From positions 1 to 64,000 of the forward strand of contig JAGBHE010000043.1 in NCBI GenBank assembly GCA_017935675.1: a DNA stretch of 64,000 nt, read 5' to 3'. Of this stretch, positions 2,504 to 44,690 are shown piece by piece. The DNA comes from Clostridia bacterium. GTDB lineage: Bacteria; Bacillota; Clostridia; UBA1381. The notes under the pieces were generated by a model. The model saw nothing but the letters and a program-made list of their open reading frames with translations. It was not told the DNA's origin and ran no database searches. Position 1 is the first letter of the stretch. The number at the start of each line of letters is the position of its first letter. Both the position numbers and the translations under genes were made by a program.

Positions 2504-3295
2504 GTGATTAGAGTTTTGGAATATCATGGCGAAAATTTCGGCGGTACTTATGAATTCCGATGCAAAAAGCATACGGAAGATTTTATTGTAAATTCTCATT
2601 TACATGAATACAGTGAGATACTGTATGTTGATAAGGGATGTGCGGATATTACTATCCAGAACAAGCCATGCACTATCCCTGAAAAGCATTTGGTGTTTAT
2701 TCCTCCAAACTATGTGCACCAATTAAATTGCACGAACGCCGTAACCGTATGCGCGGTTTTTTCAAATGATTTCATTCCGCTGTTTTTCAGCCGGCTCGGG
2801 AACAGATTTTTAGAATGCAGTCCCATTGACTTTTCAGATAAACTCCATTTGATTGAAAATATACATCTGTCAGATGCCGACGACTGTCTTTTAATCAGCG
2901 GAAAATTGTATTTAATCTGTGATGAGGTAATCAAAAAGTCATGCTTTTCAAGCAGCCAACCTATGGACAGCACGCTGTACCAGAAAATAATTTCATATTT
3001 ACAAAATCATTATTCAGAGAACATAACCCTTAAAAAACTGGCGAAAAAATTCGGATATAACGAAAAATATCTTTCCTCCAATATTCACACATTGACAGGA
3101 ATACATTTCACCAAATTACTTGCAGTATATCGGATAAACTGCGCAAAGCAATTATTAAACAATACGGACATAAGTATTTCCGAAGCGGCATTATCAAGCG
3201 GATTTTCTGCAATAAATACATTCAATCGCGTGTTTAAAAATATTGTCGGTATAACTCCCACAGAATACAGAAACGGAGTGAAAAAAAGCAATTAA
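2504..3295 (+). CDS. AraC-family transcriptional regulator with cupin sensor
   Basis: 263 aa. The N-terminal half is an AraC-type cupin (VNSHLHEYSEILYVDKGC, then the FIPPNYVHQL metal/ligand pocket motif). The C-terminal ~100 residues carry two helix-turn-helix motifs, ending in the family signature GFSAINTFNRVFKNIVGITP. The start is a GTG at 2504 with a weak AAAAGGT upstream. Divergent from the SDR/dehydratase operon, it most likely senses the substrate and regulates that operon and itself. Ligand unknown. Confidence 0.85.
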   Translation: MIRVLEYHGENFGGTYEFRCKKHTEDFIVNSHLHEYSEILYVDKGCADITIQNKPCTIPEKHLVFIPPNYVHQLNCTNAVTVCAVFSNDFIPLFFSRLGNRFLECSPIDFSDKLHLIENIHLSDADDCLLISGKLYLICDEVIKKSCFSSSQPMDSTLYQKIISYLQNHYSENITLKKLAKKFGYNEKYLSSNIHTLTGIHFTKLLAVYRINCAKQLLNNTDISISEAALSSGFSAINTFNRVFKNIVGITPTEYRNGVKKSN

Positions 3296-3308
3296 TTGTT
3301 ATTGCAAG

Positions 3309-3499
3309 AAATGGGGTGTTGGATTCAGATGCAGAACGAACAAAACTCAGAATAATGCGGACTCTCCGCATTATTCCATGCCCGAAGGCGTACGGAGGTA
3401 CGTCGAGTGGTGAGTTTTGTTTGTAGTCCATAGGCAGAAAGCTTTAATGTATAGACTTTATGCCTATGGACGGTCTGCGCTGAATCCAACACCCCATTT
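3309..3499. repeat. R2 element, copy 1: 191 bp with perfect 20-bp terminal inverted repeats
   Basis: The ends are AAATGGGGTGTTGGATTCAG (3309-3328) and its exact reverse complement (3480-3499). Inside are nested inverted repeats: AACAAAACTCA with TGAGTTTTGTT, AATAATGCGGA with TCCGCATTATT, CGTAC with GTACG, and GTCCATAGGCA with TGCCTATGGAC. A diverged copy in the opposite orientation lies at 44478-44663 between dnaK and dnaJ. It sits between the araC gene and a tyrosine recombinase gene. It could be a MITE-like non-autonomous element or an invertible segment. No transposase is inside. Confidence 0.85.
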
Positions 3500-3511
3500 T
3501 GCGTTTTTATT

Positions 3512-4315
3512 CTACCAATTAATAACCTCATCAACTAACGTTCTTTGCTCGGTTGAGGTTTTCCTCAAGTAAATTCTTGTGGTTTCAATGCTTTCATGCC
3601 CCATCAGGTCAGCAAGAAATGCTATGTCGTTACACCTTTCAAGAAAATTCTTTGCAAACCGATGCCTGAAGGAATGCGGATAAACCACGGCAGGATCAAT
3701 ATTATATCTTGCAGCCAGTTTCTTAAGCTGAACGGAAATTCCGTGAGCCGTTATCCTCGCCCCCTGCCTGTTAAGGAATATAAAACCGCTGTCCCTGCAG
3801 TTGCTCTCAAGCCATTCCATAGCCTCTGTCCGCAAGGCTTTTGCTATGTAAATTCTTCTCAGCTTTCCACCCTTTGAATATAAATCAAGATACCCCAGCC
3901 TGACGTGCTCCGTCTTTATCTGCAGCAGCTCACTTACACGCGCACCCGTCGCGGCAAGAAATCTGATAACAAAATACCAGAACATTTCATCATCCCGCTT
4001 AAGGCATTCTTTGAAATATTCGTAATCCGCTTCACTTATTACATTTTCCAGAAAGGCTTTTTGCTGCACGCGCACAAAGGGAAGCTTCCATTTCTCTTTG
4101 CCGATGCTTTCAAGATAACAGTTTATCGCCCTGATCCTTAAATTTACGGTTTTCGGCTTGTAGCTTTCAATCAGCCACACCTTATAATCACGCAAATTTT
4201 TCCTCGTAACATCATCATACTGCTCCGAAAACTGCTTAAGTGCAAAAACATATGACGATACTGTGTTTACCGAGAGACCGCCGTCTCTCAAATGTCTTTC
4301 AAATTCTTCTATCAT
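3512..4315 (-). CDS. Tyrosine recombinase / phage-type integrase (XerC/D-like), orphan
   Basis: 267 aa. An N-terminal core-binding SAM-like domain (about 1-80) is followed by the catalytic domain with the full set: Arg126 in TGARVSELL, Lys148/151 in YSKGGK, His214 and Arg217 in HSFRHR, His240 in LMGHESIETT and the nucleophile Tyr249 in RIYL. The enzyme should be active in strand exchange. It is shorter than most XerC/XerD (about 295-300 aa) and stands alone, with no excisionase or phage genes nearby. Its stop codon lies 13 bases from the R2 inverted-repeat element, which makes R2 a possible substrate (inference). Confidence 0.88.
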   Translation of the reverse strand: MIEEFERHLRDGGLSVNTVSSYVFALKQFSEQYDDVTRKNLRDYKVWLIESYKPKTVNLRIRAINCYLESIGKEKWKLPFVRVQQKAFLENVISEADYEYFKECLKRDDEMFWYFVIRFLAATGARVSELLQIKTEHVRLGYLDLYSKGGKLRRIYIAKALRTEAMEWLESNCRDSGFIFLNRQGARITAHGISVQLKKLAARYNIDPAVVYPHSFRHRFAKNFLERCNDIAFLADLMGHESIETTRIYLRKTSTEQRTLVDEVINW

Positions 4316-9254: not shown

Positions 9255-9336
9255 TTAAAACTGACGTCAAAGCCAAAAAATTCTTTAACTGTGTAAGTAA
9301 AAAACAACAATGTTTTGGAAACATTTGTACTGTTAA

Positions 9337-9363
9337 GGGGCTGCTGCGTTAAGCAGCAGCCCC
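9337..9363. terminator. 27-bp perfect hairpin terminator (repeated element)
   Basis: GGGGCTGCTGC and GCAGCAGCCCC form an 11-bp perfect stem with a 5-nt loop, between two convergent genes and followed by a T-rich run on the plus strand (from 9370). Read in reverse it matches the hairpin at 44664-44690 at 26 of 27 bases. Confidence 0.75.
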
Positions 9364-9449
9364 GAAAGGTTTTGCATTTTTTTATTGCATGTTTTTACCG
9401 GATCTATTCACATTCAGTACGTATTTTTCTTTTTTTGTTTCGCTAACCC

Positions 9450-23850: not shown

Positions 23851-23874
23851 TCAATCACTATACGGGGGTTTTTT

Positions 23875-24008
23875 AAATCGGAGCAACGCTCCTGCTTTGC
23901 TCGCAAGTAGCAGAGCTTGCGACAGATTGCAAGCAAGCGCAGGGAGCGTCAGCTCCTCAGAATTTCAGTGGGAGATTTGGGCTCCCACTGAAATTCTGAA
24001 ATAGGACC
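23875..24008 (-). repeat. R1 dispersed structured repeat, copy B
   Basis: Reverse-complement copy of 1-136, with the same hairpins (CTCCCACTG / CAGTGGGAG and the GCTCCTGCTTTGC family). It lies between the terminator of the DUF4091 gene and the end of the phosphoesterase gene, with no coding content. Together the two copies bracket about 23.7 kb in inverted orientation. Confidence 0.75.
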
Positions 24009-24051
24009 CGCCGCCTAAGAGGCGAGGGACATCTGCACGTAGATTACATTT

Positions 24052-27000
24052 TTACAGCCCTGCCGGAATGCACAGCGGTGCTAATGTACCGTAATCCCAT
24101 ACGAACAGCTTAAGTTGTCTGCCGCTCAAATCGCTTGGCAGTGCAATGTCAACAGTTGCCGTTGCATTCTCGCCGCCTGCCGGTGTTTGACTCATCCATA
24201 CCTGCTCTAACTGTCCTTCATTATACAACGCCGCATACAGAGCTACCGTACCGCTGAAACCGCTTATATCTGCGATGCCTTGCGTAATTGATGGATTCAG
24301 GGAGATAACCTCGTTTAAATCCGCGTCAAAGAACGCCGCTTGCTTCATTTTCACCGTTACGATAATGGGCGCGCCGTCTACTGTAACATAGCCTCCGTTT
24401 TGCGCATCCCGGATTGCCAGTATCGGAGTCAATTTAACCTCCTCAGCACCTTTTGCCGGACGCGTCACCTTACCGGTTTCATCGATAATTCCGGGCTTAT
24501 CGGATTTCCATCCCATAACAAGCAGCTTGTTCTCGGTCTGTAAGCCGTCAGTCTCGCCGGACTTTAATTCCAAAGCTTCCGTCACATTCTGAGCCGACTC
24601 GTTGTTTCCTTTAATCCGGTCGAAGGTAATTTTTCCTTCCTCTGCTGCAGCCAGCTCCTTTGCCTGGTCTTCGGCGCTGCGCCATACCTTGATATTATCA
24701 ACACTGCACATATCACCGGTTACCCATTTACTGGCAGGTCCTGCCGCAATTACCTTCCAGCCCTCAGTAGAAGAGCTCGCGATAATTTGCTTTTTCGCAG
24801 TAATTTCTTTTCCGTCAATCCACAGTCCGCCTAAATACTGCCTGTTTTCCTCATCTGTTCCCAGCAGCAGCCGAATCTTATGCGCATCTCCGCTGACAGA
24901 AGCGGAAGCATATACTTTAAGTGCCGTATCATAATACTCATAAGATATACTTGAACTGCCAACACGCAGCTTTGCTGCATTTGTTCCGTTTCCGTTACGT
25001 AAATAGAAATCGATATTCTGCCCCGCTGCCGCCGAAAGGCGCTTCAGATCCATCTCAAACATAAACTCCCCGGACAAAATCTGCGGGACATGTTTTTTTG
25101 TCTCTGCATTAATCACCGTTCCCGGCTGGAATGGAATCATCAGGTTTGTTCCGCCTAAATTTTTGGAAACCCATTTTGCCATGCCGCTTTCGCCGCCGGT
25201 AAGCACAATTTCTCCTTCTCCCATCACGCCGCCGCTTGTATAGTTTTCAACATAAGGAATGACCGTGCGCGCATGATCCTCGTTCGAATCTGTCAGAGCT
25301 TCTGTAAAATCCTCATTTGCAATATATCCGGTTTGCACTATATCCAGCGGCTTCATGCCCTTATCCGGCACTGTTACGGTGATCGGATTCCCGTCTGCCG
25401 TCACATAGTCGCCGGCAGCTTCGTCCAATGCATCAATCATACCCAACACCGGTGTAAGGGTAACGGTCGCAGCATCCCCTGAAAATGCGGGCTGATTAAC
25501 CGTTCCGTCCGCCGCAATAACCGACTCGTTATCAGACTTCCATCCGAGGATAACCAAACCGCTTGCTGTCATCTGACCAATCATATCTGCCAGTTTCAGA
25601 TCTTCGGTCACATTGCCTGCGTCCGTATTTCCGCCCTTTATCTGTTCAAAGGAAATATTATCGCTTCCTGCCGTGATAAGATCGCTGATCTGACTTGCCG
25701 TCGGACGCCATACCTTTATATTGTCAACGCTGCACATATCCCCTGTTACCCATTTTGATGCAGGTTCCGCGGCAATTACCTTCCAGCCGTCACTGGGATA
25801 ATCCGCAATCACTTGTTTTTTCGCAGTAATTTCTTTTCCGTCAATCCACAGTCCGCCTAAATACTGTTTGTTTTCTTCATCTGTTCCCAGCAGCAGCCGA
25901 ATCTTATGCGCATCTCCGCTGACAGAAGCGGAAGCATATCCTGCAAGCGTTGCCTTGCCGCTGCTATTCTTGTAATAATACTCATAAGTTATATTTGAAC
26001 TGCCAACTGTCAGCTTTGCCGCATTAATACTTCCATTCCGGAGATAGAAACCGATTTTCTGTCCCGATACCGCCGAAAGGCGCTTCAGATCCATCTCAAA
26101 CATAAACTCCCCGGACAAAATCTTCGGAACATGTTTTTTTGTCTCTGCATTAATCGTCGTTCCCGGCTGGAATGGGATCATCAGGTTTGTTCCGCCTAAA
26201 TTTTTGGAAACCCATTTTGCCGTGCCGCTTTCGCCGCCGGTAATTACGATTTCTCCTTCTCCCATCACGCCGCCGCTTTTATAGTTTTCAACATAAGGAA
26301 TGACAGTACGCGCATGATCCTCGTTCGAATCTGTCAAAGCTTCTGTAAAATCCTCAGCTGCCAGCATTGCCGGTTTTATACCGGGCAGTGCCGGCGTTGT
26401 GTAGGTGTTTTCCGACTCAATCGAAGCCGACGCAACACCGTAATCGTTATATGCCGTAACCTTGGCGCGATACTCTGCTTCCGGAGCCAAATCGTTAATC
26501 GTATAGGTCAGTGACGACGGCATAGGAGACACAACATTTTCCGACCAAACCTTCATGGTTTTATCAGTCTTTCCTGTGACCGTATTCACCAGCTCAATCT
26601 GATACTTATCTACCTTTTGCGCATTATTCGCCTGGGGGAAGCTTACAGTCACTGTATCCTCCGTTCCCTCCAAAACAGGCTTTGCAGATGCTTCAAACTC
26701 GGGGACTTGTGCGTTTGCTTTCCGCTGTGCTTTCGTATACCGGAAGCTGTTTGTCCAATCGTTGTTGGTCTCTCCGCGGTTAATCACCCACTTTTCACCC
26801 GCAATGGCACCGCAGTTATCAAACGGCTCTACCGGCACATAATTATTTGCTTTTGCATCTCCGCGGTCGCCGTTTACCGTAATGCGGTTGATTTCCACGC
26901 GGTCACCGTAAACCTCTACAGTAAGCCCCTGTGTTGACGGGAACTGATATGCTTTCTTTTGCTGACCGTCTGCGCCCTTCCACATCATCTCTTTGTTATT

Positions 27001-44477: not shown

Positions 44478-44663
44478 CAAGGGTGTTGTATTTAGCGCAG
44501 ACCGTCCATAGGCAGAAAGTCTATAAATTATAAACTTCCTGCCTATGGACTACAAACAAAACTCACCACTCGACGTACCTCCGTACGCCTTCGGGCATGG
44601 AATAACGCGGAAAACCCGCATTATTCTGAGTTTTGTTCGTTCTGCATCTGAATCCAACCCCCC
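44478..44663 (-). repeat. R2 element, copy 2, between dnaK and dnaJ
   Basis: Inverse-orientation homologue of 3309-3499. The internal stems GTCCATAGGCA / TGCCTATGGAC and the CATTATTCTGAGTTTTGTTCG part are near identical. The terminal repeats are worn: left GGGTGTTGTATTTAG, right CTGAATCCAACCCCCC. The open frame starting MDYKQNSPLDVPPYAFGHGI exists in both copies, probably as a by-product of the shared sequence. Confidence 0.8.
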
Positions 44664-44690
44664 GGGGCTGCTGCTTAACGCAACAGCCCC
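44664..44690. terminator. 27-bp hairpin, repeated element
   Basis: GGGGCTGCTGC-TTAAC-GCAACAGCCCC, 10 of 11 pairs. It equals the reverse complement of 9337-9363 except for one base. Directly abuts the end of R2 copy 2. It may attenuate dnaJ transcription, but has no T-run. Confidence 0.5.

Follow-up and report, generated by a model that had tools for sequence, protein, structure and literature searches.

A multi-copy structured repeat with conserved base pairing at gene 3′ ends in gut Clostridia

REP elements are 20–40 bp hairpins tagged with GTAG or CGTC, of which the GTAG type is associated with transposase genes; REP/BIME sequences lie 3′ of genes and between convergent neighbours (PMC3733652; PMC1525189). 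The bcr repeats of the Bacillus cereus group are intergenic and 100–400 bp long; bcr1–3 are MITE-like, bcr10 and bcr18 have conserved secondary structure, and bcr1 is, according to published reports, restricted to the B. cereus group and has its mobility tied to a TTTAT motif (PMC6542083, PMC3446304). Group IIC introns have a single orientation and are found on the 3′ side of terminator hairpins (PMC3898094). Palindromic candidates, mostly with terminator-like stem-loops, are described in a structured-RNA survey of human microbiomes, and some of these may overlap the element examined here (PMC8040213).

The element lies in a 64,000-nucleotide stretch of a Clostridia bacterium contig, referred to below as the window. 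The original prediction described perfect 20-bp inverted ends around a richly palindromic core, and both features were confirmed: positions 3309–3328 and 3480–3499 are 100% complementary over 20 nt, and three inverted pairs are nested between them, namely I2 (3329–3349/3411–3431), I5 (3350–3361/3365–3376, perfect) and I3 (3426–3441/3456–3471, 94%). The RNA fold was calculated at −114 kcal/mol (z = −15) for the + strand and −103.6 for the − strand (shuffled means −52 and −45), with none of 200 shuffles folding as well. Since the other genome copies, printed with their flanks, stop at GGGG...CCCC and share these borders, we place the repeat unit at 3313–3495 (183 bp, + strand, the strand on which the conserved core reads CCGAAGGCGTAC...) and regard the AAAT/ATTT outside it as chance pairing of the flanks. 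Perfect pairing over the 16 bp at the unit's ends is a property of the window copy only; six other copies pair at 12–14 of the 16 positions. The outer stem, identified by its inverted-end pairing, has its 5′ arm at 3309–3328 (3309–3312 being the chance flank pairing) and its 3′ arm at 3480–3499. Within it, also on the + strand, are stem P2 (arms 3336–3349 and 3411–3424), which covaries across genomes; hairpin P3 (3350–3376), with a perfect 12-bp stem whose sequence and length are free to vary in relatives; the near-invariant core hairpin P4 (3382–3410), which reads CCGAAGGCGTAC-N4-GTACGYCGAGNGG and has a GAA/GAG internal loop; and hairpin P5 (3426–3471), an inverted repeat that also appears in the fold, with a 16-bp stem that is 94% paired.

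The unit at 3313–3495 is a dispersed, multi-copy repeat. About 10 whole or partial copies occur at unrelated loci of its own genome, where a search returned eight matches of at least 140 bp at 85–100% identity plus partial ones, and where a covariance model, R1, with the core CCGAAGGCGUAC-N4-GUACGYCGAGNGG plus its stem, found 9 copies. One of these copies is in the window itself (44481–44663, − strand, 93% identical), between dnaK and dnaJ in a grpE-dnaK-dnaJ cluster and just upstream of the dnaJ start, with a terminator-like hairpin directly 5′ of it (44664–44690, − strand). The dnaK-dnaJ spacer could be read in 27 further members of the family, among them the same-genus genome G001; none of these spacers carries the element, and many have a terminator-like hairpin. 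The window also holds a different dispersed inverted repeat pair (1–137 and 23872–24009, 88–97% complementary) with a CAGTGGGAG...CTCCCACTG hairpin, as well as a tandem duplication at 24680–26330 whose period is about 1.03 kb and whose identity is 88–93%.

Computation on related copies established conserved pairing with compensatory changes and an asymmetry between the strands. In an alignment of 32 sequences, 97.8% of the cells in P2 and P4 were paired and 10 of the 18 pairs had changed on both sides, values that none of 500 shuffles reached on any measure; because the folds guided where the ends of these sequences were set, the alignment is somewhat biased towards pairing. Sliding the pairing partner dropped the paired share to 30–43%. 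An independent arm test gave 8.6 for a copy's own arms versus 5.7 for the arms of other copies (85 distinct arms, not phylogenetically independent). Mismatches in P2 were G-T in 44 cases and A-C in 8, and P4 alternates between G-U and G-C. Because G-T exceeds A-C so far in P2, the + strand appears to be the structured one, either as RNA or as single-stranded DNA. Conservation is far stronger in the inner core than at the termini, and GTAG often follows P2 but is not constant. No family matched among the Rfam 15 covariance models at gathering or relaxed thresholds, and a full-text literature search with the core string in DNA or RNA letters returned unrelated matches only.

Across genomes, R1 matched 41 of 61 relatives, the highest count being 34 copies in one genome. 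Within the class, the motif was present in 32 of 196 genomes, spanning many families, and there counts near 25 are to be read as at least that many. The exact core pattern was present in at least 120 stretches, mostly from gut Clostridia MAGs, and also in Bifidobacterium leontopitheci LMG 31471 and a Helicobacteraceae MAG, while the strict core pattern was in none of 298 other genomes spread evenly over the phylum, few of them from the same class. In the B. leontopitheci isolate genome, three tandem core hairpins lie downstream of an apparent nusG (locus L082, about 2510–2744), with GC-rich stems that differ in sequence yet remain paired. Neither the whole element nor the core had a significant match in phage or plasmid records, and viral contigs gave one hit. 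What emerges is a strongly compensatory nucleic-acid motif that many gut Clostridia families carry, in as many as 34 counted copies per genome, and that is absent from Rfam.

The genes around each copy were compared at 119 loci, of which 62 were convergent, 53 codirectional (33 read −, 20 read +) and 4 divergent. The excess of convergent over divergent pairs places the element at gene 3′ ends. Codirectional genes at first seemed to show an orientation bias (28 vs 12), but it weakened as loci were added (33 vs 20, p = 0.10) and was set aside; since these copies show no bias to + strand transcription, a role in the sense transcript is not established. For 87 of 149 copies, the end of a strong hairpin lay no more than about 35 nt from the left border, itself placed approximately, as against 18 of 559 random positions. 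Many of the hairpins beside copies have T-runs. We rejected the idea that the hairpin is always part of the element, because it is missing from the window copy, the copies of G013 and some of those of G010. Hairpins at the copies of G424 and G429 are nearly uniform, and another unit can follow in tandem at a spacing near 242 bp; the hairpin may therefore travel with the unit in these genomes, in which case it would not be a pre-existing target there. At five G424 loci (L272, L276, L277, L280 and L284), two or three structured units stand in tandem; the inner units end in variants such as CTACATCTCC, and the last unit mostly has a CTACGGCCCC-like end that could pair with the 5′ arm of the upstream hairpin. 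Units at three G049 loci (L209, L210 and L213) have an extra structured module (GTACTCTTTCGAGTATC...) inserted in their outer part, suggesting modular growth. A solo GGGGCTGCTGCGTTAAGCAGCAGCCCC hairpin without a structured unit is found in the window at 9335–9371; the genome has 14 such hairpins, several adjoining the element or a lone element end.

We think it reasonably probable that this is a multi-copy structured repeat, spread in trans, that resides at gene 3′ ends, typically downstream of an intrinsic-terminator hairpin, and works as a transcript end. An enzyme encoded elsewhere would spread the element, which would typically come to lie immediately after such a hairpin and there give the transcript a structured 3′ end that insulates or terminates, closely comparable to REP/BIME or bcr elements. 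Action at the RNA level, by termination or insulation of transcription, and spreading by such an enzyme are what we infer. At the window locus, the AraC-family regulator gene (2504–3295, + strand) and a tyrosine recombinase gene (3512–4315, − strand) are convergent, and the element lies between their stop codons, in agreement with its predicted location between araC and an integrase. It is the only strong inverted repeat found in the interval separating those codons; since it is the main hairpin structure there, it probably ends or buffers both transcripts. Counting against this reading are the lack of a sense-strand bias among codirectional copies, the chance that the upstream hairpin travels with the element in some genomes, and a simple terminator scan that gave a single terminator-like site in the window element, internal and on the − strand; nor did any mobilising enzyme come to light. 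If the element does end or insulate transcripts, its effect on expression would extend to numerous gene pairs of uncultured gut bacteria.

A more ambitious possibility is that the element belongs to a new class of strand-specific structured mobile elements, SINE-like RNA or single-stranded DNA, with a putative enzyme that reads the 29-nt core and inserts the element on the 3′ side of terminator hairpins throughout Clostridia; the element would also have been transferred to other phyla. We regard this as doubtful at present, though any enzyme that did recognise the core would represent a new hairpin-directed insertion system. The rival proposal, that the mobile form is a strand-specific nucleic acid (a reverse-transcribed RNA, or single-stranded DNA moved by a hairpin-reading recombinase) inserting 3′ of terminator hairpins in the manner of group IIC introns, is unlikely. 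It would account for the fixed orientation 3′ of hairpins, the lack of a clear target-site duplication and the fact that the same strand is always the structured one, and terminator hairpins are indeed recognised by group IIC introns (PMC3898094). However, RVT_1 or Y1_Tnp above threshold is often missing from element-rich genomes, and neither co-occurs with the element: it was found in 13 of 17 genomes positive for RVT_1 (PF00078) and 28 of 44 negative ones, in 16 of 23 genomes positive for Y1 (PF01797) and 25 of 38 negative ones, and near one of eight Y1-family gene loci. We therefore dropped the reverse transcriptase and the Y1 transposase as candidate mobilisers, with no association for either over these 61 genomes, and there is also no intron-like Rfam match.

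A MITE, that is, an internally deleted DNA transposon whose GGGGTGTTG...CAACACCCC ends are recognised by a DDE transposase and whose inner structure is incidental, is unlikely. The element is multi-copy, short and non-coding with terminal inverted repeats, and its GGGG...CCCC termini, dispersal, size within 100–300 bp and lack of coding capacity would all suit a MITE. Against this, about 20 inspected flanks showed no consistent target-site duplication (one 7-bp candidate, at L205), no full-length element with such ends was recognised, short of a dedicated search, and the far better conservation of the core than of the termini is the reverse of a MITE. The MITE-like element offered in the original prediction holds as to kind, a dispersed repeat. 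The copy-number check proposed along with it went against an invertible switch: many copies lie far from any recombinase.

The neighbouring gene is a lone XerA-like tyrosine recombinase that we judged unrelated to the element. It had been credited with all catalytic residues, and we found these by eye (Arg in ARVSEL, Lys in SKGGK, HSFRHR, GH and Tyr) together with a match to Pfam Phage_integrase (E = 1.4e-25); its best family matches are XerA/XerC-like, below curated cut-offs. The element does adjoin the stop codon (3512–3514), but at a gap of 12 bases and not 13. Orthologues 73–78% identical to this recombinase occur in four genomes (G005, G011, G019 and G024), none with the element alongside, and an orthologue is missing from element-rich genomes, G006, G009 and G013 among them. 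Over 237 fetched element loci (1.05 Mb, overlapping fetches counted), such a recombinase was present only at the window's own locus. In every printed copy with an upstream hairpin, that hairpin keeps to one and the same side of the core, and therefore there is no sign of inversion. The element has no linkage to this kind of tyrosine recombinase, the recombinase here is a bystander, and inverted repeats adjoining such a gene can be accidental. That the recombinase flips the 151-bp core through the 20-bp inverted ends to alter read-through or a promoter, as first proposed from perfect ends adjoining a recombinase with its catalytic residues, is very unlikely because the recombinase is not linked, inversion has left no sign, and a scan of 3200–3600 for promoters of the sigma-70 type gave no site, and the ends are moreover imperfect in sister copies.

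Our best reading is that of a terminator-associated structured repeat, working like REP/BIME or bcr elements, and it is useful to set it beside the known systems. Invertible switches run by tyrosine recombinases share with it the inverted repeats beside such a gene, at the window locus only, and differ in that the adjacency of element and recombinase is not conserved. Like group IIC introns, it is found 3′ of terminator hairpins in one orientation, but it matches no intron-like family in Rfam and does not track reverse-transcriptase genes. The bcr repeats are comparable in being intergenic, some of them MITE-like and some with conserved structure; the present element is spread over many Clostridia families and other phyla, more broadly than reported for bcr1, and no TTTAT motif was seen at its inspected borders. 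The likeness to REP/BIME includes high copy number, an extragenic and palindromic nature, a position 3′ of genes and often in convergent pairs, and the presence of clusters and tandem units; in placement, the element is extragenic, downstream of genes and enriched between convergent ones, as REP/BIME are. It departs from REPs in size and tag, being a 183-bp unit (longer elsewhere) in which GTAG is not constant. Furthermore, it is branched, has a near-invariant 29-nt internal-loop hairpin and, unlike GTAG-type REPs, does not co-occur with Y1 transposases in the 61 genomes.
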